From: Sphingobacterium sp. UBA7855
GTDB lineage: Bacteria > Bacteroidota > Bacteroidia > Sphingobacteriales > Sphingobacteriaceae
Assembly: GCA_002500745.1 (NCBI GenBank)
Contig: DLST01000002.1
Coordinates: forward strand, 1-64,000
Direction: 5' to 3'
DNA length: 64,000 nt
Shown: in pieces, positions 9,126 to 42,836 of the stretch
Layout: the number at the start of each line of letters is the position of its first letter
Position numbering within the stretch: position 1 is the first letter of the stretch
Program-made: the position numbers and the translations under genes
Notes under the pieces: generated by a model
What the model was told of the DNA's origin: nothing
What the model saw: the letters and a program-made list of their open reading frames with translations, nothing else
Databases searched by the model: none

Positions 9126-9245
9126 TAATAGAGAAAAATGCGTAATAAGTTTAAAGAAATTACTCAATCTGAAGAATACATTTTGACGAAGGAAATGATG
9201 TTACCATAGTCCAATATCAATATCTTAGAATATCTGTTTATGACG

Positions 9246-9523
9246 ATCTAGCCGATAAGATCGAAAGCTTGTTAACAACAGCATCAGGCTATCGCATCTT
9301 CCACAACCCTATCAAGGAAGAGAACTGGGATAAGCGTATGCTCAAACTCTACGAAAAAAATATTGTCCATTACCTACGTACCAAAACCAAGTTTCAACGC
9401 AAAAATCCCATCTACATTCTATCCTTAGCATATGGCCGGGTAGTGGCTACGATTACCGATGGATCCAGCCCGGGTTGGTCAAGTCTGGTCACTCAAGATG
9501 GGCCTTTGGCGCAAAAGATGTGA
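9246..9523 (+). pseudogene. 3' remnant of the gene split by hipBA
   Basis: From about 9246 the DNA again matches the 18153 gene (18365-18415): both encode DKIESLLTT, one residue, SGYRIF. After this the two diverge. The open frame continues to 9523 (ending PLAQKM) with no recognised family. An ATG-like start inside it is not convincing. I read this as the tail of the interrupted gene, perhaps retaining its original 3' end. Confidence 0.6.
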
Positions 9524-9577
9524 CGTTTTCACAAAACGAATTGGAAGCAGTTATAAGATATATTCTATAAGATTATG

Positions 9578-10354: not shown

Positions 10355-10435
10355 TATTGAATAACAATTGTTTTATTTTCAAATATATTAAATTTTATAG
10401 TTCTGGTACTTTTGAGCTATAGAAATAAGTTGAAT

Positions 10436-26075: not shown

Positions 26076-27383
26076 ATGGCGTTAAATGTCAGAGAACTTC
26101 AAGATGAGATCATAGATCAATATCTTGAAGAAGATAATAGTAGACCTTGGATTGTTGGGTTTAGTGGAGGAAAGGATTCGACAACTTTACTTCAATTAGT
26201 GTGGTATGCTATTGCTGAGCTTCCTGCTGAGTTGAGGACTCGTAAAGTGTACGTTGTATGTAATAATACCTTGGTTGAAAATCCCAAGATTATTGAATAT
26301 ACTGAGCGGGTATTAAATAAAATTCAACTAGCAGCTACCGAGCAGGCTATGCCTATGTATGTTCAACGCACAACACCAAAACTAGAAGAGACGTTTTGGG
26401 TTAATTTAATAGGTAAAGGATATCCTGCGCCAAATAATATTTTCCGTTGGTGTACAGAACGTCTTAAAATAAACCCTACCACTCAATTCATTTTGGAAGT
26501 CACCAAACAGGTCGGGGAAGCCATTATTCTTTTAGGGACTCGGAGTGCTGAAAGTGCAAATCGCGCTAAAAGTATCAAGAAACATGAAATAAAGGGGGAA
26601 CGTCTTCGTAAGCACATTATTCCTAATGCTTACGTCTATGCAACGATAAAAGATGTTGAGACGCCAGAGTTATGGCAATATTTAGCTCAAGTTCAATCCC
26701 CTTGGGGCGCGTCTAATAAAGAGTTAATTACATTATATAATAACGCAAGTGGGGGAGATTGCCCGTTGGTCATTGATACAACTACTCCCTCATGTGGAAA
26801 TTCTCGCTTTGGTTGCTGGGTGTGTACGGTTGTCAATAGGGATAAATCTATGGAAGCGCTAATTGCTAATGGAGAAGACTGGATGGATCCTTTAGTGGAA
26901 CTTAGGGATCTTTTGGCAGAGTCTCGGGATAATGAGGAACTCAGAGAGAAGAGAAGGAGGAATGGAACAATTACAGAGGGAGTTTTGGGACCATACATTC
27001 CTGAATTTAGGAAGGACTTTTTAACTGCGTTGCTTAGAGCACAAAAAGAGATTCAAGAATCTTATCCTGAGATGATATTAATAAACTATCAGGAGCTTGT
27101 GGCTATTCAGGTCATATGGTATAGGGATAATATATTCAAATATAAAGTAGCGGATATTTACAACAGTGTCTATGGAACCGCGATCTCCTTAGAGGCAGCC
27201 GAGGACGAACGACTTGTACGCGAAAAAGAATTACTCAAGAAGGCTTGTGGTAATAATAGTGATGATTTTGAACTTATCAATGAGTTGTTAACCTTACAAA
27301 AATCCAGAACAATTCTTATGAATAGTAGAGGATTACAGACTGATTTAGAAAATAGGTTAAAACAATTTGTTGTTGGGTATTAA
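26076..27383 (+). CDS. dndC: DNA phosphorothioation protein DndC
   Basis: A 435-residue member of the PAPS reductase/ATP pyrophosphatase family. The PP-loop SGGKDSTT (residues 30-37) binds ATP. Cysteines in FRWCTERLK and PSCGNSRFGCWVC are those that hold the Fe-S cluster in DndC. In known Dnd systems it activates DNA for sulfur insertion into the backbone, using sulfur delivered by DndA. The HIIPNAYVYATIKDV segment and length are typical. It is first in a dndC-dndD-dndE-mrr operon; dndB does not precede it here. Confidence 0.95.
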   Translation: MALNVRELQDEIIDQYLEEDNSRPWIVGFSGGKDSTTLLQLVWYAIAELPAELRTRKVYVVCNNTLVENPKIIEYTERVLNKIQLAATEQAMPMYVQRTTPKLEETFWVNLIGKGYPAPNNIFRWCTERLKINPTTQFILEVTKQVGEAIILLGTRSAESANRAKSIKKHEIKGERLRKHIIPNAYVYATIKDVETPELWQYLAQVQSPWGASNKELITLYNNASGGDCPLVIDTTTPSCGNSRFGCWVCTVVNRDKSMEALIANGEDWMDPLVELRDLLAESRDNEELREKRRRNGTITEGVLGPYIPEFRKDFLTALLRAQKEIQESYPEMILINYQELVAIQVIWYRDNIFKYKVADIYNSVYGTAISLEAAEDERLVREKELLKKACGNNSDDFELINELLTLQKSRTILMNSRGLQTDLENRLKQFVVGY

Positions 27384-27392
27384 ATATAACAT

Positions 27393-29570
27393 ATGTTTAT
27401 AAAAAACGTAACACTTACTGATTATCGGATTTACCATGGAAAAAATGAAATTACATTTTTTTCCGTTCCATTCCGTAATGTGTATGTGATCTCAGGGAAT
27501 AATGGCTTTGGAAAGACTACCTTTTTGACATCTTTAATTTGGTGTCTTTACGGAAAAGTAATGGTCGATGTCGATGAAAAATACCGCCGTGAAATATATG
27601 AAGCTGGTGGCTATAAAGTTTATGCGAAGAAAAATTTGAATCGTAAAACTAATTCCCTCTATGAAACCTTTATAAAAGAGAAAGAGGTAGAAATAGAAGA
27701 TGCAAAAAAGTATCATAAGGAAAATTACGATAAGCTAATTTCTCGAAAAGAGGAGCTGAGTTCTTATTCTGTAAAAATGATATTTTCTGAAATCTCAATA
27801 CCTTCTATTGTCTGTGATGAAGTATCAGTTGAACGTACATTTAATACTGAAAAAGGAGAAGATACATTGACCATTTTAATAGATGGTCAAGTTAATGAAT
27901 TAACGAAAGAAGTAGGACCAGAAATTTTTATACAAGATTTTATTCTTCCTAAAGAGATCGCCAAATTTTTCTTTTTTGATGCTGAGAAAATAGTTTCATT
28001 GGCGGAGATGAAATCGTTAGAAGAAAAACAGAGTTTGAGTAAGGCATATGCAGAAGTTTTAGGCATAAAAAAATATGAAGACCTTAAGTATAACTTGGAA
28101 GGTATTCGCATTCGATTGAGACGCACTTCTGCAAGTGATTCAGATCGTAAGAAATTTGACGAACTAACAACAGAAATCAATCGTGCAAAGCGTTTATTAG
28201 AAGAGTACAGAGAACAGATTGATTCCCTAAACGAGGAGAAAATATCAAAAAAGGTTTTGGCCGATCAATATCAAGAGAAGTTGATTCGTGAAGGTAATTC
28301 AATTACTGTTGAACAACTTAATGAACTACGGGAACAGCAGCGCGACCTATCTACTCAATATGATCAGATTAAATCCCGTATGAAGGATCTACTTGAGATG
28401 GCACCTTTTGCTATTGCAGGAAAAAAGATTAAACAAGTTAGAGAGCAGGTTCTATCGGAGGCTCAATTGGACCAAAAGAACATCGATCCCATTTTGATTA
28501 ATGAAAAAGCGAAAAAAATCACGAATCAGGTGCTTGACATGATTATTTCAAAATGGAAATTGAAAAATAGTCAATTGGATGAATTAGGAACGGAACTGGA
28601 AGAGACCGTTATTAAGGTTTTTACGCCTGATGTTATTAGTGATCCCGGTTTCAAAGTCTTATTCTCTTTTACACCAAATGAACGTAATGAATTTGAGGCT
28701 ATCTATTCTAATTTGAGGTTTTCATATAATCAGCTTTTTAAACAACTCGTTTCTGACCAAAAACAAAATCGAATTGCTGCCAATAGAATTTCTCGGCAAA
28801 TATCAGACTCCGAATCAAAAGAGAAAGATCTATTGGTGCAAGAAATCCGCAAAAAGAAAACTGCTATAGATCAAAATTTAGATCAGATAGATCAGGATAT
28901 ACTTAAAAATAGCATAGCGATTTCGGACTTACAGCGTGATCTAGGTATCAAAATGAAGCAGGAATCTGAACTTGCCAAAAAGATAAAGGTTGAGGATACG
29001 GATCTTGGAAAAGATGAGGTAGCTGCACGTTTGATAGAGGAATTGAGTGTTTTTATCCAACAATTTAAATCTGAGAAAAAAGCGCTGCTTGAAAAGAGTT
29101 TAAAAAAAGAATTAAATCTATTGATGCATAAAGAACGATTTGTCGATAGGGTGGAAGTAGAGGTTGGAGCAGATTTAATTGATATTCATTTATATGATAG
29201 AAATGGAGAAATTGTCAACAAAGATGCTTTGTCAAAAGGTGAACAACAATTGTACGCTACTGCTTTATTAAAAGCTCTAGTAGACGAATCAAATATTAAG
29301 TTCCCAATATTTATCGATAGTCCATTGCAAAAATTTGATAAATTCCACTCGGAAAATATTATCAAGGAATTTTATCCGCAGGTATCCGAACAAGTTGTGT
29401 TATTTCCATTATTAGAAAAGGAATTAAGCCAAGAAGAGTATGAAATGCTTTTGCCTAGAGTGAACAGTGTACATTTAATCAAAAATATTGACGACGACCA
29501 TTCTACATTCGACTTTGTACAGGCAGAGCAATTATTTAAGTATTATCAATCGTTAGCAAGCCATGTTTAA
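27393..29570 (+). CDS. dndD: DNA sulfur modification ATPase DndD
   Basis: A 725-residue SMC/Rad50-like ATPase. Walker A is GNNGFGKTT (residues 35-43). Two coiled-coil arms surround a central region with the family-typical LEMAPFAIAGKK. The ABC signature is LSKGEQQLYATALLKAL and Walker B is PIFIDSPLQKFD. DndD is thought to provide ATP hydrolysis or DNA opening for sulfur insertion by the DndCDE complex. It starts nine bases after dndC and overlaps dndE by eight bases. Confidence 0.95.
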   Translation: MFIKNVTLTDYRIYHGKNEITFFSVPFRNVYVISGNNGFGKTTFLTSLIWCLYGKVMVDVDEKYRREIYEAGGYKVYAKKNLNRKTNSLYETFIKEKEVEIEDAKKYHKENYDKLISRKEELSSYSVKMIFSEISIPSIVCDEVSVERTFNTEKGEDTLTILIDGQVNELTKEVGPEIFIQDFILPKEIAKFFFFDAEKIVSLAEMKSLEEKQSLSKAYAEVLGIKKYEDLKYNLEGIRIRLRRTSASDSDRKKFDELTTEINRAKRLLEEYREQIDSLNEEKISKKVLADQYQEKLIREGNSITVEQLNELREQQRDLSTQYDQIKSRMKDLLEMAPFAIAGKKIKQVREQVLSEAQLDQKNIDPILINEKAKKITNQVLDMIISKWKLKNSQLDELGTELEETVIKVFTPDVISDPGFKVLFSFTPNERNEFEAIYSNLRFSYNQLFKQLVSDQKQNRIAANRISRQISDSESKEKDLLVQEIRKKKTAIDQNLDQIDQDILKNSIAISDLQRDLGIKMKQESELAKKIKVEDTDLGKDEVAARLIEELSVFIQQFKSEKKALLEKSLKKELNLLMHKERFVDRVEVEVGADLIDIHLYDRNGEIVNKDALSKGEQQLYATALLKALVDESNIKFPIFIDSPLQKFDKFHSENIIKEFYPQVSEQVVLFPLLEKELSQEEYEMLLPRVNSVHLIKNIDDDHSTFDFVQAEQLFKYYQSLASHV

Positions 29571-29958
29571 AAGTATTAAAACTTCAGAAGCTAATAAGGA
29601 AATAGTAACCGATTTAAGCCGTAAGCTGGGACTTGGAGCAGAAAATATTATTGCTCGTATTGCATATAGTTATTCCCTAGCTTCAGATGTTCGTCTAAGC
29701 ATTTCAGATATAAAAGATGCTAGGGGTAAAGAGTATAGTGCAACGGTATTATTTGGCAACAACTTACCTTTTTATATTGCTATGGTCTGTACACACTATA
29801 ATATTTATAAAACAGATAAAGATATCGCAAAATATGTAAAACTGCACATTGATCACGGATTGGAATTATTAGATAAAGAATTTAATGATAATCCAAATGT
29901 AACTGGATTTGAATTTTTGGTAAATAAAGTCGATATTGGTTTAAGGGAATTAATCTAA
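29563..29958 (+). CDS. dndE: DNA sulfur modification protein DndE
   Basis: A 131-residue protein with the DndE layout: SEANKEIVTDLSRKLGLGAE, then ENIIARIAYSYSLA, a GKEYSATVLFGNN strand and a C-terminal GLELLDKEF helix. DndE is a small DNA-binding component that prefers nicked DNA and is needed for phosphorothioation. Its start overlaps dndD by eight bases, so translation is coupled. Confidence 0.92.
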   Translation: MFKSIKTSEANKEIVTDLSRKLGLGAENIIARIAYSYSLASDVRLSISDIKDARGKEYSATVLFGNNLPFYIAMVCTHYNIYKTDKDIAKYVKLHIDHGLELLDKEFNDNPNVTGFEFLVNKVDIGLRELI

Positions 29959-29968
29959 ATATTGAGAA

Positions 29969-30805
29969 GTGTATCAAACGATTAATCAAGCGATATTAGA
30001 AGTATTTAAGAGAGAAAATAATGCTCTTCGTGTTCGGGAAATTTATCTTCGCATTCAAGAGGATAATTTGTACGAATTTAATACATCAACCCCTGAGCAG
30101 GTTGTGCGTACAGCATTACGCCGGCATGCAGAAGGATTGAATTTTGCTTCCTCTAGCGAAAAAAAACTATACCAAGTCTTAGATGATGGTCGCTACTGGT
30201 TAAAGGGAGGTGAAGTTGGCCAGACAATAGAAATATTGGCAGATAGAAACGATACTGATATACCTTCAAAGAATTTAAAGAATAGTATTCTAGAAATTGA
30301 ATCTCTGCAAGATAAATACGCAAATGCTTTCAGAGATTCAATACTAAATCGGCTCAAGAGATTTTCCCCTAAAGATTTTGAAATTTTTTGCCGAGAGCTT
30401 TTGAAAGTTTATGGATTTGAAAAAGTGGAAGTCACCAAATTATCCCGTGATGGAGGGATAGATGGGTTTGGTGAGCTGAAAATAGGCTTGTCTTATCTCC
30501 ATGTTTCTTTCCAGTGTAAAAGGTGGGATAAAACTGTTGTACGTAGACCTGAAATAGATAAATTCAGAGGAGCATCCCAGGGAAAATTTCAGCAAGCAAT
30601 TATTTTTACGACATCTACATTTACTCAAGATGCGAAGAAAGCCGATAATCAAGTTGGCGCCATTCCAATTGCATTATTTGATGGAGATGCTATTGTTAAT
30701 TTAATGATTGAAAAGCGGTTTGGCGTCGAAGTTGTAAAAGAAATTTATCTATTTGAAGAAGCTTTCGATAAGATATTTGATGAAAATAATATGATAGTTA
30801 CCTAG
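29969..30805 (+). CDS. HARE-HTH/Mrr-type restriction endonuclease
   Basis: A 278-residue protein with two domains. Residues about 3-80 look like the HARE-HTH winged helix (TINQAILEVFKRENNALRVR), a module associated with sensing modified DNA. Residues about 125-265 are an Mrr catalytic domain: DFEIFCRELLKVYGF, DGGIDG (D165) and FQCKRW (Q182, K184), the QxK form of the PD-(D/E)XK site normal for Mrr. Translation probably starts at a GTG 11 bases after dndE. As the last gene of the dnd operon it may restrict DNA lacking, or carrying foreign, modification. Confidence 0.85.
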   Translation: MYQTINQAILEVFKRENNALRVREIYLRIQEDNLYEFNTSTPEQVVRTALRRHAEGLNFASSSEKKLYQVLDDGRYWLKGGEVGQTIEILADRNDTDIPSKNLKNSILEIESLQDKYANAFRDSILNRLKRFSPKDFEIFCRELLKVYGFEKVEVTKLSRDGGIDGFGELKIGLSYLHVSFQCKRWDKTVVRRPEIDKFRGASQGKFQQAIIFTTSTFTQDAKKADNQVGAIPIALFDGDAIVNLMIEKRFGVEVVKEIYLFEEAFDKIFDENNMIVT

Positions 30806-30813
30806 ACTATCAT
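30791..30813. terminator. convergent terminator shared by mrr and dndA
   Basis: ATGATAGT / ACTATCAT, an 8-bp stem with a seven-base loop, lying across both stop codons and followed by a T-rich run on the plus strand. Confidence 0.6.
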
Positions 30814-31962
30814 ATTATTTTTTATTTTATTAATCTCTTTTATGATAATTTCCGACCCTTTAAGGATATCTTCTTCTGTAGTAAATCTTCCAATACTTAG
30901 TCTAATCGAAGAATAAGCTTCACGTTCCTCTAAGCCCATTGCAGTTAATACATGAGAGGGTTCTATTTTGGTAGAAGAACAAGCCGACCCATTGGAGATC
31001 ATTACCGTATCTAGACCTGCGATTAATGCATCAGCATCTATATTCTTTAAACAAATATTTGAAGTATTATAAATTCGATTAGAAATATCACCATTGACAT
31101 AACTTCCTTCTACCATATTTAATATACTTTCTTCCAAATGGTCTCGCAATTTGCCAATACGAGTACTTTCTTCAAGCATATTAGTGGAAGCTATCTCAAT
31201 AGCCTTTCCTATACCAATAATACCTGGAACATTTAAAGTTCCGCTTCGAAATCCATTTTCATGGCCTCCTCCATGCTGCAATGCATTTAATCTAACTTTG
31301 AATGGACGTTTGTTTCGAATATAAAGGCCTCCAACACCTTTCGTTGCATAAAATTTATGTCCAGAAAATGTCAGAATATCTATTCCCAATTCTTCTACAT
31401 TAATATCAATTTTAGAAAATGCCTGCGTTGCATCAGTCATAAAATATGAACCATTTTCGTGGGCTATTGTTGACAATGTTTTTATATCCTGGATTACTCC
31501 AGTCTCATTATTTACAAACATTATTGACACTAATATAGTATCCTCTTTAATTGCATTTTTTAATTCCTGAGGGTTGATTAAACCATCATTTCGCACGGGT
31601 AAGTATGTTATTTCAAAACCTTGCTTTTCTAAATATTTACATGAATCTAAAACAGCTGGGTGCTCCGTTCGGCATGTAACAATATGTTTACCCCTTACTT
31701 TATTATACTCTGCAAACCCTATTAATCCTAAATTAATAGCTTCAGTAGCTCCTGATGCAAAAATAATTTCCCCAGATTTCGAATGCAAAAAGCCTAATAG
31801 CATCTCGCGTACAATATTTATCTCTTGATTTATTAAAGATCCAGACTTGTGACGGCTGGCAGCATTCTCATAGGTTGTAAGAAAGTATGGGAGAGCAGCA
31901 GTAAGAACTTCTGGATCTACAGGGGTAGTGGCATTATAGTCGAAATATATATCATTTTTCAT
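30802..31962 (-). CDS. dndA: cysteine desulfurase DndA (IscS/NifS-like)
   Basis: A 386-residue PLP enzyme that takes sulfur from cysteine and passes it to DndC. Seen features are YFDYNATTP at the start, the PLP-binding Lys in SGHKFYATKG (K203) and the persulfide Cys in NGSACSSTKIEPSHVL (C328). It is convergent with the dndCDE-mrr operon and divergent from the kinase gene at 32018, only 55 bp away. It could also serve as a general desulfurase, but its position argues for DndA. Confidence 0.9.
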   Translation of the reverse strand: MKNDIYFDYNATTPVDPEVLTAALPYFLTTYENAASRHKSGSLINQEINIVREMLLGFLHSKSGEIIFASGATEAINLGLIGFAEYNKVRGKHIVTCRTEHPAVLDSCKYLEKQGFEITYLPVRNDGLINPQELKNAIKEDTILVSIMFVNNETGVIQDIKTLSTIAHENGSYFMTDATQAFSKIDINVEELGIDILTFSGHKFYATKGVGGLYIRNKRPFKVRLNALQHGGGHENGFRSGTLNVPGIIGIGKAIEIASTNMLEESTRIGKLRDHLEESILNMVEGSYVNGDISNRIYNTSNICLKNIDADALIAGLDTVMISNGSACSSTKIEPSHVLTAMGLEEREAYSSIRLSIGRFTTEEDILKGSEIIIKEINKIKNNMIV

Positions 31963-32017: not shown

Positions 32018-34210
32018 ATGAAAAAAATAGAACAAGTTTCTTTTTCTGTCGATGCAGGTATAATTAATCGCCTAGGTTTAGAATTAGTAGCAAAATCTGA
32101 AACTGCTGTTGCTGAGTTAATAAAAAACGCTTATGATGCAGATGCAAACGTTGTTAATTTATTTTTTGAAAATGCTAATATCCCTGGAGGAACTTTATTG
32201 ATTACTGATGATGGTAATGGGATGGATAAAGGCCAGTTAATTGATGGTTTTATGAGACTTGCGACTTCAGATAAAATTCATAATTCCATTTCTGAGAGAT
32301 ATCAAAGACCCAAAGCCGGAAGAAAGGGGATTGGAAGATTTTCTACACAGAGATTGGGGGAAACTCTCATCATCAAGACAAAATCTCAAAATTCTCCTAG
32401 TTTGGAATTAGAAATCAATTGGAATATGTATGCACCCGATACATTGTTAAGTAACATTAAAAATAATTTAACTACATTAGAAAATACACAAGGTCCAATA
32501 GGTACAAAATTGCTTATTAAGGATTTAAGGGATAAGTGGAGTGATGCAGATATTAAGCGTGTTTACCGTTATGTAGCAGATTTGATTCAACCAAGTTACC
32601 TTTCTGTGGGAGATAATAACAGAATTATTGAGGAAAGTAAAGATGAAAGCTTTGAGGTTAATTTTCTGAGGAGACAAGGCGATCAAAAAGATTGGTCATC
32701 TGTTGCAGATCCTTCATTAATGATGTTAGATAGAGCGCTAGCGACGATTACTGGATATATCGACGCAAATGGAATAGGAGTTTTAAATCTTTCTACAAAA
32801 AAGTTTAAGTTCGATGAAGTAGAGAGCGTTTTACATGATACTTTTCAAATTTCATCGGAACCTTTTCATGAGCTAGTAGGGGCATCAATTGCATTTAAAG
32901 CTTACTACTATATTGGGGGGGATAGAAATAGTTACTATGGAATAACAAAATCAGAACTTAAGGTAATTACTGATCATCTTAAGAAGAATGGTGGAATTAA
33001 ACTTTACAGAAATGGTTTTAGAGTACCAAAATATGGTGAAATAGGAAATGATTGGTTGAGTTTGGATACAAAATCAAGGATAGGCGGGGGAATTCCTTTT
33101 AGTAATAATCACCTTTTAGGCTTTGTTCAACTAATAGACCCGGATGGAAAGATATTTGAAGAATCAGCTGGTAGGGAAGGTTTAATTGAAAAAGAAGCTT
33201 TCAGGGAATTACAATCGTTTATTTCTTCTGCGATAGAAACTGGTTTCTTAAATTTTATTTCTTGGTTTAGGAGATCCGACGAATATAAGGCTTTAAATCC
33301 AGACCGTGCTCCGACACCGAAGGTGGAAACCGTAAACAAGAGCTTATCTGTAATTAACAATGCAACAAAGGTACTTACTAGTTTAGATACATCCGAGGAA
33401 GAAAAAAAAGATGCTGCACTTCAACTTGAGCAAGCAACAAGAGTATTTGTTAGTACTACTAAGTCTGCGATCAATGAATTAGAAATGATGAGAGTTTTGG
33501 CAGGAGTCGGGCTTACAATTGCAGAATTTATTCATGAAATTAAACAAATAATACCCTCAACTCTAGGATATGTTGAAGATACGTTAAAGAAAAATATTTC
33601 AAAGGATATAGCTGCAAATTTAGAAAATATTAATGAAGTATTAGCATCTTTACTTGCCTATACTTCTTATTTTGATGATACAATATCGGGTAACGTTATC
33701 AGGGAGCTTAAACCTATAAATCTTAGAACGGCAATCAAATCATTTCAACAAGTAATAAATGCTGACCTAATAAGAAGACATATAATTCTTGAAACCAAAA
33801 TGGAAGGTAAAGACCTAATTATTAAATCTATTCATCCTTCTGAAGTTAACACTATATTACAGAATTTATATAGTAATGCTAAAAAAGCAATACTAAAAAA
33901 TAGTGGAAAAAGAGGGAAAATATTGATTAGGGCGCAAAAAGATGAAAAAAATGGCACAGTCGTTTTGGACTTCCAAGATAATGGAATTGGCATACCTGCA
34001 AAAAATAAAGACAGAATCTTTGATGCATTTTTTACAACTGCAACTGATAGGAAAGAGGATTATGGTACTAGTACAGGCCTAGGCTTACATATTCTCAATC
34101 AAATGATTCAAAACAGGTCAGGTAAAATAGAACTTGGAGAGCCGGATCCAGATTATAAGACATTATTTAAAATTACATTACCACTTGGTACAAAAGAAGA
34201 CCTAAGATAA
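32018..34210 (+). CDS. double-GHKL sensor kinase-like ATPase
   Basis: A 730-residue protein with two GHKL ATP-binding folds. The first (residues 1-190) is Hsp90/MutL-like: AVAELIKNAYDADA (E33, N37, D40), DDGNGMD (64-70) and GRKGIGRFS. The second (about 490-725) is a histidine kinase core: a possible H-box EFIHEIKQ (H506), N-box LQNLYSNAKKAI (N620), DNGIGIP (654-660) and TGLGLHI. There are no membrane segments, so it senses something in the cytoplasm. It starts a tight three-gene operon, four bases before a response regulator. The general annotation is secure; its role is not. Confidence 0.8.
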   Translation: MKKIEQVSFSVDAGIINRLGLELVAKSETAVAELIKNAYDADANVVNLFFENANIPGGTLLITDDGNGMDKGQLIDGFMRLATSDKIHNSISERYQRPKAGRKGIGRFSTQRLGETLIIKTKSQNSPSLELEINWNMYAPDTLLSNIKNNLTTLENTQGPIGTKLLIKDLRDKWSDADIKRVYRYVADLIQPSYLSVGDNNRIIEESKDESFEVNFLRRQGDQKDWSSVADPSLMMLDRALATITGYIDANGIGVLNLSTKKFKFDEVESVLHDTFQISSEPFHELVGASIAFKAYYYIGGDRNSYYGITKSELKVITDHLKKNGGIKLYRNGFRVPKYGEIGNDWLSLDTKSRIGGGIPFSNNHLLGFVQLIDPDGKIFEESAGREGLIEKEAFRELQSFISSAIETGFLNFISWFRRSDEYKALNPDRAPTPKVETVNKSLSVINNATKVLTSLDTSEEEKKDAALQLEQATRVFVSTTKSAINELEMMRVLAGVGLTIAEFIHEIKQIIPSTLGYVEDTLKKNISKDIAANLENINEVLASLLAYTSYFDDTISGNVIRELKPINLRTAIKSFQQVINADLIRRHIILETKMEGKDLIIKSIHPSEVNTILQNLYSNAKKAILKNSGKRGKILIRAQKDEKNGTVVLDFQDNGIGIPAKNKDRIFDAFFTTATDRKEDYGTSTGLGLHILNQMIQNRSGKIELGEPDPDYKTLFKITLPLGTKEDLR

Positions 34211-34214
34211 AAAG

Positions 34215-35306
34215 ATGGCATTAAAATTTTTATATATTGATGATGAGCCTGAAAAAACGGCTCGAGGTTTAATTACTAAATTGGACGATAAAGTAAATAT
34301 TGATTTTACTATTGTGCAACCATTAACTTGGAATCAACAAAAATCAAAATTGATAGACAAGGGTGGACTAAATGAATTTGATGGCTTATTGCTAGATTTT
34401 AAACTCCAATTTTCTGACGACGAAGATAGTGAGATTAAGTATTCAGGCGCGGAATTAGCCCAAAGTGTAAGGAACGGTTCTAAATCAGGTGCTATTAAAG
34501 ATATACCTATTTTTCTTTGTAGTACCGAGGATTTTTACATAAATCTTTTTGATCGAACAAGTAAGGATTTATTTGATGTAAAATATAAAAAAGAAATAAA
34601 TCTAAATACCGAGGACACTCAATCCGAAATGATCGCTTTCGCAGAAGCTTACTCTACTATATCTTCTAATCATAAGGAGCTAGAAACAATCCTGCAAAAG
34701 CCTATTTATGCTAATGAAGATATTGAGATTCTTAAAACGGAGCTAAATTGTTTTCAAACACCACACGAATGGGTATACTTAATTAATAACTATTGTATTC
34801 AATCGGCAGGGCTCTTAATTGATGAGAATCTTTTAGCTATAAGATTAGGAATAGATCGAATAAAATCAAAGAAATGGGATATACTTAAAAATGAGTTTCT
34901 TTTAAAATGTAGATATGAAGGAATTCTAAGTGGCTTCTACTCAAGATGGTGGCAGTTTGAGTTAAATAATTGGTGGTATGAAAATTTTGATAAAAGTTTA
35001 ATTGTACTCAATGCCGATGAGCGTGTAAATTTTTTAAATGAAAAATTCGGCCTGGATTTGGTGGCTATACAATCTGCTGAACATCAACAATATAGCACCT
35101 TTTGGTATAAGTGCAGATTATCAGATATAGCTTTAGACTCAACTGATGGCTTAAGAACTATAGAAATGCCCAGATATGTTTGGCAAGAACCAACTTATAT
35201 ATCTTTATCATATCTATTGTCCGATGAAAGAGATATCGAATTAGCATATAGTTTATTGGGGCCAAATGAACGTCAAATTTTTGAAGAACTAGATGACCAA
35301 AGCTAA
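34215..35306 (+). CDS. atypical response regulator with unknown output domain
   Basis: A 363-residue protein. Residues 1-130 form a receiver domain: FLYIDDEP (D9, D10), LLLDFKL (phosphoacceptor D61), FLCSTED (S103/T104) and a KYKK lysine. The receiver has a long acidic insertion (SDDEDSEI) after D61. Residues about 140-363 are a helical region rich in Trp and Tyr (GFYSRWWQFELNNWWYENFD) with no HTH or known enzyme motif. The partner kinase is encoded just upstream, so it is the probable phosphodonor. The output domain may be the effector. Confidence 0.7.
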   Translation: MALKFLYIDDEPEKTARGLITKLDDKVNIDFTIVQPLTWNQQKSKLIDKGGLNEFDGLLLDFKLQFSDDEDSEIKYSGAELAQSVRNGSKSGAIKDIPIFLCSTEDFYINLFDRTSKDLFDVKYKKEINLNTEDTQSEMIAFAEAYSTISSNHKELETILQKPIYANEDIEILKTELNCFQTPHEWVYLINNYCIQSAGLLIDENLLAIRLGIDRIKSKKWDILKNEFLLKCRYEGILSGFYSRWWQFELNNWWYENFDKSLIVLNADERVNFLNEKFGLDLVAIQSAEHQQYSTFWYKCRLSDIALDSTDGLRTIEMPRYVWQEPTYISLSYLLSDERDIELAYSLLGPNERQIFEELDDQS

Positions 35307-35308
35307 AT

Positions 35309-36067
35309 ATGACCTTTAAACAACAATTTATCAAATATATAGGTGTACTTAGGACTTTTAAAAAAGATTTACAAGAGTTCCAGTTTCAAGTAGACCAAAT
35401 AGTCGCAGTGGGAAAAACTATTCAAGAAGATAAAAATAGTTTTTCTTATGTATTTTCCCCGTTGAAGCTAACTATACCTAAAAAGCTAAAACCTTCACAT
35501 ACTATGCCTAAGAATGTTGAAAGTATTTCAATAACAATTTCCGTAAAAGATAGAGTGGAAGTACGTAGACTAAATGAAAACAGAATTGAAGACCCAATGA
35601 TAAGTCTGGATAACTTCAATATAGTGCTTACTAGTAAGGACACTCATTTTTCTTCTTGGCATCTAGATAGGCATGTTATGGATAGAAAAGAAGGTGAAGG
35701 GGACAATCTCCATCCAATATATCATATGACCTACGGTGGACATTTTATGGAAAGTAAACAAGAAAGAGATACAGACATATATGGAAAATCTCTTATTATT
35801 AGGGCGCCCAGATTAATGCATCCCCCTCTGGAGTTGATTTTAGGGCTAGATTTTGTTTTTAGACACTATATTCCAAGGAATAAATTACCATTACTCGATT
35901 ATAAGCCATATATTGATATCGTTGAAAATATAAAGAAAGAGATTTGGTTTCCATATGCTCTAGCGCTGGCCAAAAACTATTGTAGAAATATTCAAATTGA
36001 TAACAAACCTTATGGCTTTGATGATTACTTTGTGAAACGAGTTATCGGACATAATCCTGCCGAATAG
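35309..36067 (+). CDS. unknown His-rich protein, third gene of the kinase operon
   Basis: A 252-residue protein of no family I recognise. An N-terminal helical part (residues 1-45) is followed by beta-rich sequence and then a striking run of histidines: H113, H118, H122, H135, H139, H145, H171 and H186, in HFSSWHLDRH, HPIYHMTYGGHF and RLMHPP. This could be a metal-binding or nuclease-like centre. It begins two bases after the response regulator stop, so it is co-translated with it and likely acts in the same system. A terminator follows. Confidence 0.55.
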   Translation: MTFKQQFIKYIGVLRTFKKDLQEFQFQVDQIVAVGKTIQEDKNSFSYVFSPLKLTIPKKLKPSHTMPKNVESISITISVKDRVEVRRLNENRIEDPMISLDNFNIVLTSKDTHFSSWHLDRHVMDRKEGEGDNLHPIYHMTYGGHFMESKQERDTDIYGKSLIIRAPRLMHPPLELILGLDFVFRHYIPRNKLPLLDYKPYIDIVENIKKEIWFPYALALAKNYCRNIQIDNKPYGFDDYFVKRVIGHNPAE

Positions 36068-36147
36068 AGTAGCAGTTAAAGAGTGGTGCAAATAGTTAGT
36101 TATAAATATTTCACCTGTATGATGGTTATTACAATTAATTTAATATT

Positions 36148-36184
36148 CTCTTTCCAATTTGAGGTTCAACTAAATTGGAAAGAG
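36148..36184. terminator. bidirectional terminator
   Basis: A 13-bp perfect stem (CTCTTTCCAATTT / AAATTGGAAAGAG) with an 11-base interior, between the convergent genes ending at 36067 and 36215. Confidence 0.75.
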
Positions 36185-36214
36185 GTTTTAAGATTTTAAT
36201 CCAATTATTACGGG

Positions 36215-38053
36215 TTATAAAATGTTCAGTTCATCTCTCTTTTTAAGATATGACGCAGTGAACTTCCCCCAATCTTCTCTGAGTTCCATGTATACGGATT
36301 CGGGATCGTCATTCATACTTTCTGCTTTTGCATAAGCAAATAAAAGTAAATCTATTCCATCAATTGCTTTTCTAAAAATATGATTAATGAAATCGGGGTC
36401 TAATTCCGCAGCATCTTTAGCTATTGCATCTTTTATTGGCGCATATACTTCCTTAATAAAAGGATGACGTTTGTTTATTTTTACTAATATTGTTTTGTTC
36501 AAGTGTTCAATATCTATTAAACCTTTTCCGGGCCATTCTATTTCTAGTGCTACAGTTGGTTTCTGTTGCGCGAGCTCTGCGAATTCTTCTTGTTTATCTC
36601 GAGTTTGAATACCCAGGCTTTCTGCAACTTCAAGGAGTCTCTGTTTTTCAGCGTCTGGAGTTACATAATCGCCTGAACGCCCTTTGGGCATACTTGTGTT
36701 TGAAAATTTTACGGTCTCTTCGGCATTATCACGCCCGCCACTGTAATCATCGGGATTGGACGCACTTTGAATTACTTGACTCTCAGACCAAACATCTCTG
36801 ATACGTTTTCGAGCTGTCTTGATAGGCTTATTCAGCGTGAGCTTTAATTCTTTTTTAAGTTTTTCAACGGGTTCAACACCACGCTTTATATGACGAACTT
36901 GAAAATATTCATCTAAAGCTGGAGGAAAAAGCACTTCAATGCCAATATGCCTATCTAAATGCCCATTTCTATCTAAACTATCTGGTGTAATTAAATAAGG
37001 AACCTTGACATAACATATTTCTCTTTCTTGTCTTAGAAAGCTAATTTTGCCTTGATTGTCAGGTATCTGAAGCTTTTTAAACTGTCCATCCCCAAGAGGA
37101 CCTTTGATTCCACCACCACCAGATACCAAACGCGTAATTTTTGGTGTTAAATATACTTTCCAAAAAACTCTCTCATTGTCAATAACAATTTCTCCTTCTT
37201 CTACTAATTCTCCTTTCATACTTTCTCCTTTCGCTAATGCTTCCGCATCCGGATTTTCTATTTGGAAGGTCGGATCATAAGGAGTAAGTGGTATGTCCTC
37301 AAATAGTTGACCAGAGCTATTAGGTAAAAATATTTTGAGACCCTTATCAATATAAATGCGATAGGTTCTTGATAAAAAATAACCTAATCCAGCTATTTTT
37401 TCGTCTGGGGACTCGGAATAAGCACGGCTTTCGTTCATCCTATCGATATTCCTCCAGATTATTAATGTACCACTACTCAAACCATCCATTAAGTGTTGGT
37501 ATTCTTCAGGAAAAGTCTCTACTTCTTTAGCTATATAATTATTTTGTTTTCCATCGGCTATTTCATCAAGATCTAAGTAGCTCATATAAATTTTACCAGA
37601 AGTATTTTTAGAGCCCTTTTGCGGAATATATGTTCCACTTTTCTTATCCTGCGATAATTCAAGATAACCAGGCTTCGTATATATTTCTAGTCGTTTCGCT
37701 TGGCTAATTGAAGCTAACTTAAAACCAACACCAAATCGCCCCATACCTTCTCGGCTATTATATCTAGTACTAAAACCAATTGTCAATACATTAGGTAGAA
37801 TATTAGGTGCAATTCCCATACCATCATCACTTATTGCAAATGATGAAACAACTCGCTTTACTTTTGTTGACTTTCCAGACTTTATTGTATCAAATTTCCA
37901 ATCAAATTTTATTTTTCGAGCACCAGCTTGAATTGAGTTATCTACAATTTCACCGATAGCATCAGTGAAATTGTATCCCCCATCTCTAAAACTTTGAAGA
38001 GCTGTATCGGCTCTAACTAATTCTGCTTTTATTATATTATCTATTGTTGCCAT
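36215..38053 (-). CDS. MORC-like GHKL ATPase
   Basis: A 612-residue protein with an N-terminal GHKL ATPase like MORC and MutL: GEIVDNSIQAGA (E35, N39), SDDGMGI (75-81) and GMGRFGVGFK (103-112). An S5-type transducer region follows to about residue 260, then a domain ending in a helical segment (LLLFAYAKAES). Prokaryotic MORC ATPases are known from restriction-modification-like operons, where they are thought to clamp or remodel DNA. It starts two bases after a sigma-like HTH gene. No Z1 helicase or methylase, the usual partners, is present. Confidence 0.75.
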   Translation of the reverse strand: MATIDNIIKAELVRADTALQSFRDGGYNFTDAIGEIVDNSIQAGARKIKFDWKFDTIKSGKSTKVKRVVSSFAISDDGMGIAPNILPNVLTIGFSTRYNSREGMGRFGVGFKLASISQAKRLEIYTKPGYLELSQDKKSGTYIPQKGSKNTSGKIYMSYLDLDEIADGKQNNYIAKEVETFPEEYQHLMDGLSSGTLIIWRNIDRMNESRAYSESPDEKIAGLGYFLSRTYRIYIDKGLKIFLPNSSGQLFEDIPLTPYDPTFQIENPDAEALAKGESMKGELVEEGEIVIDNERVFWKVYLTPKITRLVSGGGGIKGPLGDGQFKKLQIPDNQGKISFLRQEREICYVKVPYLITPDSLDRNGHLDRHIGIEVLFPPALDEYFQVRHIKRGVEPVEKLKKELKLTLNKPIKTARKRIRDVWSESQVIQSASNPDDYSGGRDNAEETVKFSNTSMPKGRSGDYVTPDAEKQRLLEVAESLGIQTRDKQEEFAELAQQKPTVALEIEWPGKGLIDIEHLNKTILVKINKRHPFIKEVYAPIKDAIAKDAAELDPDFINHIFRKAIDGIDLLLFAYAKAESMNDDPESVYMELREDWGKFTASYLKKRDELNIL

Positions 38054-38055
38054 TA

Positions 38056-38679
38056 TTATTTTGCTTTTGAAGGTGTGGAAAAATCATTATTAAATAGAAA
38101 AGTCATCAAAAAAGAGTCATATTCCTCAAAATTAGTATCTAAGAAAGCTAAAAAGAAAGCCTCTTTGAACCCAGGAAAATTATGTAATTTTTGTTGTGCT
38201 AGCTTTACTATGTTTCGATATTGTCGTTCTGAGATACCTAAAAGACTCGCTATAACATCAAGTCTATTAGTCGCCTTGATATAAAGTGCGGTTCTTTCTC
38301 TTTGCGTAAGTGAATATAGTCCTCTGTAAATTATAGATTTATAATCCCTTTTTCGATCGTCAAACTCAAATTCTAATATGGCGGTTTGTTGATTTTGAAG
38401 ATAATTGTAATCTTCGACTGATTTTCCAAATCTAGTAGACGAAGTATTTTTACGAGCAAGTTCCCGTTTGGAATCTTTGAAAACTTCTTCTGCTAATTTG
38501 ATATCTTTAGCTTTTCGTTTAGGGATATCTAAAATTTTTTCGATTGATTTTTCATAAGCTTCAATTCGAAAATCGCATTGACATTTGGATATTTTTTTTT
38601 GGAGATAGGAGATGGCACTCCAGTCAATTTGCTCAAAATTTGGGATAGAGCTCTCCCTTGAAGAGTGTTTTACTTCCAT
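38056..38679 (-). CDS. sigma-like HTH protein paired with MORC ATPase
   Basis: A 207-residue soluble protein. Residues about 135-180 (YSLTQRERTALYIKATNRLD, VIASLLGISERQYRNIVKLA) look like a sigma-70 region 4 or LuxR-type HTH. The N-terminal two thirds are charged and helical with no recognised domain. It lies two bases upstream of the MORC gene in the same direction, so the two proteins are made together. It may target MORC to DNA or control the operon. Confidence 0.6.
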   Translation of the reverse strand: MEVKHSSRESSIPNFEQIDWSAISYLQKKISKCQCDFRIEAYEKSIEKILDIPKRKAKDIKLAEEVFKDSKRELARKNTSSTRFGKSVEDYNYLQNQQTAILEFEFDDRKRDYKSIIYRGLYSLTQRERTALYIKATNRLDVIASLLGISERQYRNIVKLAQQKLHNFPGFKEAFFLAFLDTNFEEYDSFLMTFLFNNDFSTPSKAK

Positions 38680-38829
38680 AATTTTTTCTGTTTATGCAAT
38701 GTCAGCTCAATGCTTACACTACCATTAATTTTAAAATTGAACTGTTTCTGCTAACAAGTAACCTACCTATCAGCCCGCTCATATTTATAAGGGGTTGAAA
38801 AAAATTAGAAAGGAAATAAAATTTTAAAA

Positions 38830-39060
38830 TTATTTTTGTTTTGGACAGATTATTTCAAGAATATCCACATTTAATGCTCTAGATATCTCTAAAAGAGTTG
38901 TGAATACAAAGTCCTCCTTTGAATTTTCAATACTACTTATTTTAGCTCTATCAACATCGCATCTATTAGCAACATCTTGTTGGCTAAAACCTTTTTCGGC
39001 ACGTATCCGTCTTATATTTTCCCCAATAACAATAAAGGTTTTAATATCCTGTTCTTTCAT
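38830..39060 (-). CDS. XRE family HTH regulator
   Basis: A 76-residue protein that is nearly all HTH: ENIRRIRAEKGFSQQDVANR, CDVDRAKISSIENSKEDFVF. Single-domain XRE proteins commonly control restriction or toxin genes. The ATG at 39060 is preferred over a TTG two codons upstream. It sits between the DGQHR/HEPN genes and the sigma-like/MORC pair and may regulate either. Confidence 0.85.
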   Translation of the reverse strand: MKEQDIKTFIVIGENIRRIRAEKGFSQQDVANRCDVDRAKISSIENSKEDFVFTTLLEISRALNVDILEIICPKQK

Positions 39061-39146
39061 TTTCAATATGAATTTGGGAAAAGGAGGCTGATTTCATCGT
39101 GGCAGTATTGCCTCATTTTATACTCCTATTTAATTTAGGGTATTGT

Positions 39147-40016
39147 CTAACTATGTTTAAATGTTTTTAGGTGCATATTTTGCAAAAACAGATAAGCATC
39201 TACTCCTTTGTCATCTAAATATTCATGTTGCTTTGTGACTATGAAGTTTAGATGATTAGATACCGAAGTAAGTAACATTTGTAATGTTAACAGTACAATC
39301 CTACTGCTAGTCTGAATAATATCTATATCTAAAGGACGAACTAACCCATGCTCTTTAGAATAATTGTACTCCTCTGGTTCGCTAAATTTCAATGAACCGT
39401 GAGCAAAGAGATTTCGAATTTTATAGACAGCTTTTATACCTACTATGTCTCCTGAGCAATTCTTATCTGGAATAAAATAAGAAGCATTCTCTTCATAACC
39501 ATCAGTATGATTTAAAAGCAATTTGAAAAAATCTACGGTCTCAGCGTAGCCAACGGGGATGGGGTACTTTGGTAAATAATTTTTACTTAAGAAGTAATTT
39601 AGACGGCTTATCTTTCCAATAGGACCGCTTTTATATTCATCGTAGGTTATACTATCGATAACACTCTCAAAACCTCCCCAAATAAATGAAAAACGAGTAA
39701 GTTCAGTAATAAGGTTCGAATGAAAATGCGATTTTGCTTGCTCGTATTCTATGGCGGGACCGCACCACATAACATCATTATCAAATATATCGCTTACATA
39801 TTCAACATTCATTATCCCTGAAGCAAGCTGAAACCAAGAAGCTTGTGAATGGTCTTCATAGGGATACTCGCTGTATAGAAAACGTACAATATTATGACAG
39901 TGCCGTTTAATGTCAACAAACTTACCATTCGGGCATAAAGTACATAGTTGATCTGTAAGATTAACCTTATATGTTTTTGATCTCTGACAATTTACTATTT
40001 TGATAGCCTTATTCAT
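39147..40016 (-). CDS. HEPN-like protein coupled to the DGQHR gene
   Basis: A 289-residue protein. KIRNLFAHGSL (R201, N202, H206 from the ATG at 40016) is the Rx4-6H motif of HEPN ribonucleases, set in a helical C-terminal half. The N-terminal part has cysteines and histidines (LCTLCPNGK, DIKRHCHN) that could bind metal. HEPN proteins often act as RNA-cleaving effectors or toxins in defence systems. It follows the DGQHR gene by 16 bases (or overlaps it if a TTG at 40043 is used). HEPN assignment rests on the motif and helical context only. Confidence 0.55.
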   Translation of the reverse strand: MNKAIKIVNCQRSKTYKVNLTDQLCTLCPNGKFVDIKRHCHNIVRFLYSEYPYEDHSQASWFQLASGIMNVEYVSDIFDNDVMWCGPAIEYEQAKSHFHSNLITELTRFSFIWGGFESVIDSITYDEYKSGPIGKISRLNYFLSKNYLPKYPIPVGYAETVDFFKLLLNHTDGYEENASYFIPDKNCSGDIVGIKAVYKIRNLFAHGSLKFSEPEEYNYSKEHGLVRPLDIDIIQTSSRIVLLTLQMLLTSVSNHLNFIVTKQHEYLDDKGVDAYLFLQNMHLKTFKHS

Positions 40017-40032
40017 ATGTCTCAAATCAATA

Positions 40033-41256
40033 TTATCTTTCAAATTCTTTGATCTTTCTCAAATCTTCAGTCTTTAATGCATCGTCACTTATCAGTCCTG
40101 TTGAATACAAGATAGCATTCCTAATATCTTTTCTCCCAATACCAGATGCCTGGACAGTAGAGCTGCTAAAATCATAAATCATAGCCGTTTCTAAATAAGT
40201 TTCAAATTCCTCTTTCTGGGTTAGAATCTCATATTGCAATATTCTTTTAAGCACATCAAATAGTGCTTGAACTCCGACTGTTTTAAATATGTAAGACCTT
40301 GGATTGTAATTTTTCCAAACAGTATCTGCGGCAGCTGATAAGTAATTTAAAATGATTTTAAAAATGTATTCGTCATCTTTGTTTAGATATTTTTGTCTTA
40401 AAGGGGAGTTATCTCTGAAGTCAGAAATCATTTTCCTAGATCTATTACCCCAAATATTTTCTTGAGCCATTTCGACTCTATCTCTTTTAGCATTCGATGT
40501 GATCAAATTTAGAATTCCATCAACAATCGTAGCAGTTGACACTGTCCATTCTTTTTGGGTTTCAAAAATTTGTTTGGATAGTACACTAGAAATTTGTGGC
40601 GCAATCTTGATGTGACCACTTAGTGGGCTTTCTTTGAAATTCAAACGCCGTGTAAAATACACTGCAAGTTTTTCTGGTGTCCAAGTATGCTGAGGCTCGT
40701 CTTCTACGTTGAAGCCAAACTGTTCTAAGGCCAAGCTTTTATCTACTCGTTTTTGGTTACCATTAATTGTAGCGAATAGGAAAGCTTGGTAAGAATTTGG
40801 TAAGTCAAAAAAAATGGCACAAGGCATTTCTATATTAAGCTTAGATTGATCGCTCAAGTATTTTTGCTCGAATCCCATCAGTCGATGTTGGCCATCAATA
40901 ACTGCTGCTAACTTTTTATTTGATGGAATGATAATTTTATATAGATTACTGTCTATAGCGTCAATATCCCATCTAATATTCTCGTCGTCAATTAGTACAC
41001 CCTCCTCTGAATAGTTTGCTGCTAAAATTATAGCGTTTGGAAAAGACATTTCAACAGACCCTATGTATTTTCCAATTTCTTTTAATCGCTTTTCATCAAT
41101 TTTGCGCTGATTTCCTTTTAGCTTTCCACTCTCATTTGTATATTCGAGCTTTTCCGAAAATGTAAGGGTTAAAAGATCACTAGCTTTAATTGAGGTGATA
41201 AAGAAATCACTCAATGGTTGAGTAACCTTTAGTGCATATAAAGTTAAATACATCAT
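40033..41256 (-). CDS. dndB: DGQHR-domain protein, DndB-like
   Basis: A 407-residue protein with the diagnostic VIDGQHRLMGF (D121-R125), ATINGNQKRVDKSLA downstream and a long helical C-terminal half. This is the DGQHR/ParB-like fold of DndB, the negative regulator of dnd operons and of phosphorothioation frequency. The ATG at 41256 follows a GGGAGGAG ribosome-binding site and lies one base after the previous stop. It is 12.6 kb from dndC and on the other strand, so the gene symbol is tentative; it may belong to a different system in the island. Confidence 0.72.
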   Translation of the reverse strand: MMYLTLYALKVTQPLSDFFITSIKASDLLTLTFSEKLEYTNESGKLKGNQRKIDEKRLKEIGKYIGSVEMSFPNAIILAANYSEEGVLIDDENIRWDIDAIDSNLYKIIIPSNKKLAAVIDGQHRLMGFEQKYLSDQSKLNIEMPCAIFFDLPNSYQAFLFATINGNQKRVDKSLALEQFGFNVEDEPQHTWTPEKLAVYFTRRLNFKESPLSGHIKIAPQISSVLSKQIFETQKEWTVSTATIVDGILNLITSNAKRDRVEMAQENIWGNRSRKMISDFRDNSPLRQKYLNKDDEYIFKIILNYLSAAADTVWKNYNPRSYIFKTVGVQALFDVLKRILQYEILTQKEEFETYLETAMIYDFSSSTVQASGIGRKDIRNAILYSTGLISDDALKTEDLRKIKEFER

Positions 41257-41257
41257 A

Positions 41258-41704
41258 CTATAAATCTCCTCCCAATGCCGAAAAACTATCATATCGCGTA
41301 TTTCTCGCTCTCACATAAATCCAAGTTGCTAAGGATATACAGGTAAAAATTGAGGTCATTTTGATAGCACTTTCGACTCTGCCAAATTTTATATCCACGT
41401 AAGAAATATATATAAAACAACTACTAAAGATTAAAGCTGCGATCAATATTAAAAATTCAATTCCATTAGTGTTATTTTTCGTGGTATTTTTTATTAAATA
41501 CAAAAACCTTTCCACATAGCTTGCCATCATTATTGCCACGCTGTAGGTAATTAGGTTTGTGGGAAGATCGTTCCAAGTTCGATCTTGTACAGTGTCGAAG
41601 GTACTTTTATCTATTAAAAAAGGTAACCATACTCCTAGAGAACTTAAAAATAGAACTGTAATAAAGAAATACAGCACATGTTCTAAAAAATTTAAATTTA
41701 TCAT
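41258..41704 (-). CDS. four-helix membrane protein upstream of DGQHR gene
   Basis: A 148-residue protein with four hydrophobic segments (VLYFFITVLFLSSLGVWLPF, LITYSVAIMMASYVERFLYL, FLILIAALIFSSCFIYI and a last one near residue 120) and short polar loops. No family is recognised. Its stop is one base before the DGQHR start, so the two are tightly coupled and may form one module with the HEPN gene, the membrane protein perhaps acting as an effector or anchor. Confidence 0.6.
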   Translation of the reverse strand: MINLNFLEHVLYFFITVLFLSSLGVWLPFLIDKSTFDTVQDRTWNDLPTNLITYSVAIMMASYVERFLYLIKNTTKNNTNGIEFLILIAALIFSSCFIYISYVDIKFGRVESAIKMTSIFTCISLATWIYVRARNTRYDSFSALGGDL

Positions 41705-42119: not shown

Positions 42120-42836
42120 TTATCTTTGCATAATTTTTCTAAACCCATTCCACCCTCTATGCAATATACTATGGCAATTTGAACACACTAGCATCAAATC
42201 ATCTAAGCTTGTTGCGGTTTCTTCTAATAAAGAATATAAAGGTTTTTTATATTGAAATTCAATAAATCCATGACCAATTTCCCCATACACTTTCTCAAAA
42301 TCGAAAGAACAAAGTTCACATTCTAGTTTGCCATGGAGTTTCAGTACTTTTTCCTTCTTCTTTTTGACGATAGTGGTATTTCGTTCCCTTGCTAAATGAT
42401 ATCGGTATAAAAGACAACCTTCTTTTACCTTTACATCATCATCAATATCGTTCGGCAGATTAATTATCTCATTTTTAATCTCTGGATTGATCGCGCTCAG
42501 ATTAGTGGCATTGGCAAGCTTATGAAGCATTTCCTTATTATCTTTGAATTCTTCAAATACTTCCTTGTCAAGTTTACTTGTTGAAGCCATTCCTTTGCCA
42601 GAATATGTTCTATCCAGTGATAAAAAATTACTCAGCTTGAGACCAACCCCGTTAGGATCTCTAAACTTTTCATAATCATCTTTATCCTCATGAATGGGTA
42701 ACTTATTTAAAGTGTTTGATAATTCAACAACCAACGGATTCCTAGCATGTATCTGCCCTGGTTCCAATCGAAAATATAGATCCAACGCAAGAATCAGCTC
42801 GTCTCGTTGCCATTTAGGATTACGCTTTTTTTTCAT
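42120..42836 (-). CDS. McrA-like HNH protein with altered active site
   Basis: A 238-residue protein. The start (NPKWQRDELILALDLYFR) is shared by a group of type IV-like HNH restriction proteins. The C-terminal HNH fold has its zinc-type cysteines CELC and VCSNCHSILHR, plus YGEIGHGFIEF. In the family the next residues are usually His-His (EVHHIKPL); here they are Gln-Tyr (EFQYKKPL). The general base His is therefore missing, so it may bind but not cut DNA, or use another residue. Its place in a dnd island suggests a role in recognising modified DNA. Confidence 0.7.
   Translation of the reverse strand: MKKKRNPKWQRDELILALDLYFRLEPGQIHARNPLVVELSNTLNKLPIHEDKDDYEKFRDPNGVGLKLSNFLSLDRTYSGKGMASTSKLDKEVFEEFKDNKEMLHKLANATNLSAINPEIKNEIINLPNDIDDDVKVKEGCLLYRYHLARERNTTIVKKKKEKVLKLHGKLECELCSFDFEKVYGEIGHGFIEFQYKKPLYSLLEETATSLDDLMLVCSNCHSILHRGWNGFRKIMQR

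Follow-up and report, generated by a model that had tools for sequence, protein, structure and literature searches.

A three-gene unit (hereafter the trio) is located in a 64,000-nucleotide stretch of Sphingobacterium sp. UBA7855 (contig DLST01000002.1, positions 1 to 64,000, forward strand; the window). It encodes a kinase with two GHKL ATPase domains (gene 1), a receiver with a Trp-rich output domain (gene 2) and a candidate effector (gene 3). The trio was found in Bacteroidota beside three DNA-marking systems, namely Dnd and Ssp phosphorothioation (PT) and N6-adenine methylation, which suggests signalling-driven policing of unmarked DNA. In the reading preferred here, to which we give about even credence, the trio is a restriction module coupled to modification and gated by a phosphorelay. 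It would sense and act within a system that tells self from non-self DNA, in which the marking is done by DndCDE, Ssp or an N6-adenine methyltransferase (MTase).

A first-pass annotation of the window had proposed the trio as a candidate new defence or stress-signalling system in a defence island. The three genes were confirmed where it had placed them (Table 1), with gaps of 4 bases (genes 1 and 2) and 2 bases (genes 2 and 3). Recurrence of the triad as a unit near defence-type genes, which it had named as a check, was observed: 17 further Bacteroidota loci were found (18 with the window), kinase and receiver genes were adjacent in 18/18, and the third gene followed contiguously at 17/17 loci where the contig continued, window included. 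The contig of the remaining locus, L046, ends inside the receiver gene. Intergenic distances in the trio ranged from −53 to +13 bases (overlaps included, starts of open reading frames (ORFs) uncurated). Homologues lying mostly apart, or a housekeeping match of gene 3, had been named as grounds for giving the proposal up; the genes were found together at the loci examined, and gene 3 gave no family match. The defence-island context held as far as defence-type genes are present, in the narrower form of DNA modification of three kinds (Dnd, Ssp and N6).

The receiver profile gave strong matches in 7/399 genomes of the nearest family (10/399 with three weak ones), 8/378 of a second family (13/378 with weak ones), 1/395 of a phylum-wide sample (2 with a weak one) and 0/126 of another order (2 weak). 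G379 is one of the eight strong matches of the second family and also the strong match of the phylum sample. The 18 loci also include three named-genome loci (two of them contigs of family matches), one Hymenobacter plasmid and the window. A search with the third protein first brought up G020 and G025, which the receiver then recovered again; because the other loci were found by the receiver, the presence of the third and modification genes is not circular. The third gene and the MTase were present in 6/6 loci unused in model building (L041–L045, L047). Weak receiver matches (E 1e-5 to 1e-3; L004, L015, L016, L036–L040 and L066–L068) were taken as ordinary receivers, and L001–L003, L008–L014, L020, L021, L026, L027 and L029–L035 were repeats of places counted elsewhere. 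L005/L006 share their contigs with G656/G539, as their equal lengths show, and were counted once, and the N6 loci L044/L045 and L019/L022 are near-copies. A distant variant, L028 (G203, 5137–10639), was kept outside the count of 18; it comprises a kinase, a 336-aa receiver-like protein, a third-like protein and a 517-aa N6 MTase, and shows the depth to which the kinase/receiver/third unit extends.

A modification gene was located within ~5 kb of the trio in 17/18 loci and at ~12 kb in the 18th (L005). The partner was Dnd at four loci, Ssp at three and an Eco57I-like N6 MTase directly downstream at 11. DndC, DndD and DndE all lie within ~5 kb at the window, L006 and L007. At L005, 106 bases separate the kinase from a DndB-like gene upstream of it; the distant gene is a DndC (profile match) on the same contig, where the neighbouring ORFs are DndD- and DndE-sized. 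SspB, SspC and SspD are directly upstream of the trio at L017 (PADLOC), their homologues occur in the same order at L018, and SspD overlaps the kinase at L046 (contig of 4.2 kb). At the 11 N6 loci, an Eco57I/N6_Mtase protein of 612–655 aa is encoded directly 3' of gene 3 (called by Pfam on L019 and L025, and by BLAST clustering or profile at the others), and the NPPY motif was present in 11/11. At most of the N6 and Ssp loci, trio and modification genes directly adjoin or overlap.

In the genomes searched, an MTase orthologue (E < 1e-150) occurred once per genome, at the trio only, in 10/10 of the N6 type, and five Dnd or Ssp genomes had distant MTase matches only (three genomes, E 1e-28 to 2e-10) or none (two). 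DndC scored above cut-off in 2/16 genomes, both of the Dnd type. Each of the three partner types is set off from the others by a highly supported branch of the kinase tree. They likewise separate in the receiver tree, but the support of the N6 group was only 75 (SH-like approximate likelihood ratio test, SH-aLRT). The third-protein tree unites Dnd in a single group but does not cleanly resolve N6 and Ssp. Partner type changes two times on the kinase and receiver trees, which is the least possible.

Besides the four genes, none recurred in more than 3/11 N6 loci when neighbours were clustered by BLAST (the L041 contig is 8 kb); the most recurrent extra neighbours were outer-membrane, integrase-like or excisionase-like genes, judged by relatives and sequence. 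No nuclease was recognised among the trio and the MTase, and no nuclease family recurred across the N6 loci in the BLAST clusters. Since the four genes hold no recognised nuclease and no other gene recurs there, restriction at N6 loci, if any, most likely originates in the trio.

Further genes were observed beside the trio at single loci. On the Hymenobacter plasmid NZ_CP014303 (L025, 992–6647), a gene with a Piwi domain (Argonaute) lies a few genes from the trio, as does a second DNA methyltransferase. At L018 (4993–9195), an 803-aa HATPase_c_3 protein, a weak GIY-YIG protein and a DndB-like gene follow one another opposite the trio and may form a further paraMORC system. At L017 (2112–8872), a DndA/SspA-like gene, a PbeA helicase and a PbeC-like ATPase are found beside the Ssp-type trio, perhaps as two PT-related systems side by side.

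The first-pass annotation had described gene 1 as carrying two different GHKL folds and a possible phosphoacceptor, H506, gene 2 as a normal receiver lacking a helix-turn-helix (HTH), and gene 3 as a His-dense protein of no assigned family; these descriptions agree with what follows. Gene 1 matched the Pfam GHKL domains PF13589 (N-terminal) and PF02518 (C-terminal), and is laid out as a MutL/Hsp90-type GHKL domain, a middle region common to HEF_HK kinases, an H-box (H506-E507) and HATPase_c. The boxes H, N, G1, F and G2 of two-component kinases are all present. Among 23 aligned kinases, E33, N37, D64, G66, G68 and K103-G106 of the first ATPase were invariant, as were H506-E507, N616, N620, D654, G656, G658 and G687-L690 of the kinase; F668 and T673 of its F box were also invariant, and F671 nearly so. 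In alignments to ZraS and a second kinase of solved structure, H506 falls on the H-box His. For the first ATPase domain, sequence matches to structures of MutL, an Hsp90-like protein and MORC3 were weak; that to the BbrUII/HgiDII restriction enzymes was clearer (E 5e-22, far under the model cut-off). From their conserved motifs, both ATPase engines look alive.

In gene 2, D9, D61 and K126 were invariant across 54 receivers, and the acidic pair, Asp, Ser/Thr and Lys of the receiver fold are present. Pfam scans of the window receiver and two other trio receivers found no DNA-binding domain, and the fold search barely covered the output region.

Profile and fold searches matched gene 3 to no known family, and it had no receiver match; the trio has one receiver. 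The conserved core reads HxDx(H/D)...HPxYH: H118, D120, H135, P136, Y138 and H139 were scored as invariant and H122 as nearly so over 15 members; of these residues, the third-like protein of the distant L028 retains H118, D120, P136 and H139. Gene 3 is called an effector mainly because it occupies the position where HEF_HK systems often have a nuclease; it is a candidate effector by analogy with that slot.

The course of action that we infer, together with its defence role, signal and substrate, would run in four steps. The MutL/MORC-type GHKL ATPase would clamp or scan DNA or the modification complex and change shape on incoming unmarked DNA, which would let the C-terminal kinase phosphorylate H506, and the phosphate would then move to D61 of the receiver. 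The Trp-rich output domain would next bind or release the third protein, whose His/Asp site would act on DNA or another essential target, the protein probably being a metal-dependent hydrolase. What was observed directly is the unity of the genes, their partnership with modification genes, the conservation of the catalytic positions that the first three steps would use, and a conserved candidate site for the fourth. The marks served by this one trio family are of two unlike chemistries, which makes a chemistry-specific reading of the mark unlikely; the trio would more plausibly sense the modification complex, or DNA escaping modification. More tentatively, the trio may be a modification-agnostic arm re-plugged into Dnd, Ssp and N6 methylation, in which the MutL/MORC-type ATPase senses unmarked DNA and His-to-Asp transfer activates an effector enzyme of a new fold; in this same tentative proposal, a nuclease would be switched by phosphotransfer and not by direct recognition of its own.

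Several observations weigh against a phosphorelay-gated restriction module. Neither a nuclease nor a hydrolase signature was recognised in the third protein, Pfam and fold searches gave it no convincing match, and H122 and H135 are lost in the distant variant L028. The Trp-rich output domain could be a regulator. At L005, outer-membrane genes separate DndC (~12 kb) from the trio. Single N6 loci may hold an unrelated nuclease (their flanks were clustered by BLAST and scanned with Pfam in part), and L022 has an Mrr-like gene 3' of the MTase; in the window, restriction could be the work of the Mrr-like restriction endonuclease (REase) next to DndE. A large search gave 3091 kinase relatives versus 79 receivers and 15 third proteins, an imbalance that may come from the sensitivity of a word-based search or from many related kinases without these partners.

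The strongest of the rival explanations, rather unlikely in our estimate, is a two-component regulator that senses DNA or nucleotide state and tunes the modification enzyme, with the third protein as an adaptor and no restriction. A receiver with an output domain resembles a response regulator, the contact between trio and modification genes noted above would suit such tuning, and signalling control of restriction-modification (R-M) systems was proposed by the HEF_HK authors (PMC8011034). The lack of a Pfam DNA-binding domain in three receivers speaks against it, although the fold search barely covered the output region, as does the N6 neighbourhood, where no gene able to restrict under such control recurs in more than 3/11 loci.

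A less probable rival takes the kinase mainly as a paraMORC-type DNA clamp or ATPase with secondary or vestigial phosphotransfer, gene 3 as a DNA-binding or scaffold subunit, and the linked Mrr-like nuclease (window, L006, L022) as the enzyme that cuts; this combination as a whole was judged improbable. The resemblance of the N-terminal ATPase to BbrUII/HgiDII, and weakly to the MutL and MORC3 structures, favours it, together with the Mrr-like REases near the trio (window, L006) and 3' of the MTase (L022). The phosphotransfer residues are nevertheless invariant in 23 kinases (H506-E507 and others) and 54 receivers (D9, D61, K126), and the N6 loci showed no recurrent nuclease family. That the trio is a general stress-signalling unit found with modification genes by chance or shared mobility is very improbable: the loci look like mobile islands given the low GC content of the trio (0.33, versus 0.39 in the left flank and 0.44 in the right) and integrase-like genes near some of them, but the partner is mostly adjacent and tracks the trio tree, beyond mere presence.

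The window is a DNA-phosphorothioation (Dnd) locus (Table 1). The hairpin that follows gene 3 was absent from the output of a simple consensus terminator scan. The Mrr-like REase beside DndE has a homologue beside the trio in Pelobium (L006, 12106–12924) and could be the PT-dependent nuclease of these Dnd loci. A separate operon (36215–41704, −) encodes an MzaB-like GHKL ATPase, an HTH protein, a 298-aa protein, the DndB/DpdB-like protein and a 148-aa protein; homologues of the last two are encoded directly upstream of the kinase at L005, the DndB-like one directly 5' of it. The window region also holds an HNH nuclease (42120–42836, −), a PD-(D/E)XK protein (24398–25369, +; PDDEXK_4, weakly PDC-S26-like) and a PD-(D/E)XK family transposase (17082–18068, +).

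Table 1. Features of the trio and its surroundings, in positions of the window.
Feature	Position	Strand	Details
Gene 1, two-headed GHKL ATPase/kinase	32018..34210	+	PF13589 residues 27-139; HATPase_c residues 608-724
Gene 2, receiver (~residues 1-150) and Trp-rich output domain (~155-363)	34215..35306	+	
Gene 3, 252 aa, candidate effector	35309..36067	+	
H506 codon, predicted phosphoacceptor	33533..33535	+	Invariant in 23 kinases; aligned to ZraS H-box His
D61 codon, predicted phosphate acceptor of receiver	34395..34397	+	Invariant in 54 receivers
Gene 3 His/Asp core: H118, D120, H122 ... H135, P136, Y138, H139	35660..35725	+	
Hairpin, probable terminator, between gene 3 and the convergent next operon	36147..36185	+	Fold z −3.6 vs 200 shuffles
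DndC, phosphorothioation sulfurtransferase	26076..27383	+	TIGR03183 461 bits vs cut-off 290
DndD/PbeC-like ATPase	27393..29570	+	TIGR03185 208 bits, under cut-off 246
DndE	29563..29958	+	PF08870 E 5e-24
Mrr-like restriction endonuclease, weak HARE-HTH match	29969..30805	+	PF04471 E 9e-24
DndA/IscS-type cysteine desulfurase	30802..31962	−	
DndB-like gene, also similar to PADLOC DpdB	40033..41292	−	PF14072

The Dnd modification module commonly occurs without DndFGH (PMC10853773), and the trio, with two phosphorothioation systems and a methyltransferase among its partners, offers a testable candidate for acting on foreign DNA at DndFGH-less loci. Phosphotransfer-gated restriction, if true, would unite two-component signalling with the discrimination of self from non-self DNA. 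At four genes, the N6 version is compact enough to be cloned and tested whole.

No description of the trio was found in the open literature, a search outside which most subscription papers, preprints and supplements fall; a related pair, HEF_HK (PF19191)/Response_reg_2 (PF19192), had already been published beside R-M genes (Bellieny-Rabelo et al. 2021, PMC8011034). Kinase and receiver of this soluble GHKL pair were reported as linked in 91.6% of the 644 regions, with enrichment near R-M genes, C5 methylases, and HNH_2 or Vsr nucleases. In the four HEF_HK loci fetched here, the C5 MTase (by Pfam for L057, by BLAST to the L057 MTase for the other three), kinase and Response_reg_2 occurred in this order in 4/4, and an HNH_2 gene was present in 3/4, adjoining the receiver in two and two genes off on the other strand in the third. 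Like HEF_HK, the trio kinase has HATPase_c_3, an H-box and HATPase_c, and adjoins a receiver and a DNA methylase; the two kinases are homologous over their full length (hhalign 99.9%, 673 aligned columns; three or four rows on the HEF side). In contrast, homology was not detected between trio receivers and HEF-type receivers (hhalign 4–6%, four rows on the HEF side), nor any relation between gene 3 and the HEF-linked HNH_2 (hhalign 0.1%, three or four rows).

PF19191 gave no match in the window kinase at E 0.1, and among the trio kinases of L017, L024 and L025 it matched L017 alone, at 15.6 bits (cut-off 24.1). PF19192 was found neither in the window receiver nor at the trio in the 8 trio genomes among 10 searched; the sole match (G758) was under cut-off and on another contig. 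C5 methylase PF00145 was not found in the 30 window proteins scanned with Pfam. The partner of the trio is Dnd, Ssp or an N6 MTase, whereas that of the HEF_HK pair is a C5 methylase, and neither phosphorothioation nor a gene 3-like third protein is described for HEF_HK in the excerpts of PMC8011034, which also list the unnamed recurrent neighbour groups OG_20, OG_16, OG_24, OG_8 and OG_294 (not compared here). As judged from profile comparisons, HEF_HK/Response_reg_2 is the nearest published relative, and the trio a sister type and not a member by Pfam definition.

The restriction arms DndFGH, SspE and SspFGH have the genomic role proposed for the trio, that of an action arm beside PT genes. 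In Detocs, a phosphorelay is proposed to unleash an effector, as in our reading of the trio; Detocs is defined by two receiver proteins, one with an effector domain, and to our knowledge includes neither a GHKL front ATPase nor a modification enzyme. DndFGH has the P-loop kinase DndF and the HerA/FtsK ATPase DndH (PMC10853773), whereas the Pfam matches of the trio comprise two GHKL domains only. The paraMORC GHKL ATPases (Iyer et al. 2008, PMC2292703) also have an N-terminal GHKL domain and occur in R-M neighbourhoods; unlike them, the trio protein also includes a complete histidine kinase and is partnered by a receiver. Shedu VcSduA (PMC12137116) has a GHKL ATPase with a catalytic residue needed for anti-phage activity, but is a single protein with a PD-(D/E)XK nuclease and, in the excerpts, no receiver described, whereas the trio has one. 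The kinase/receiver pairing beside R-M genes is already known (HEF_HK, 2021), and the Dnd, Ssp and N6 partners together with the third protein set the trio apart.

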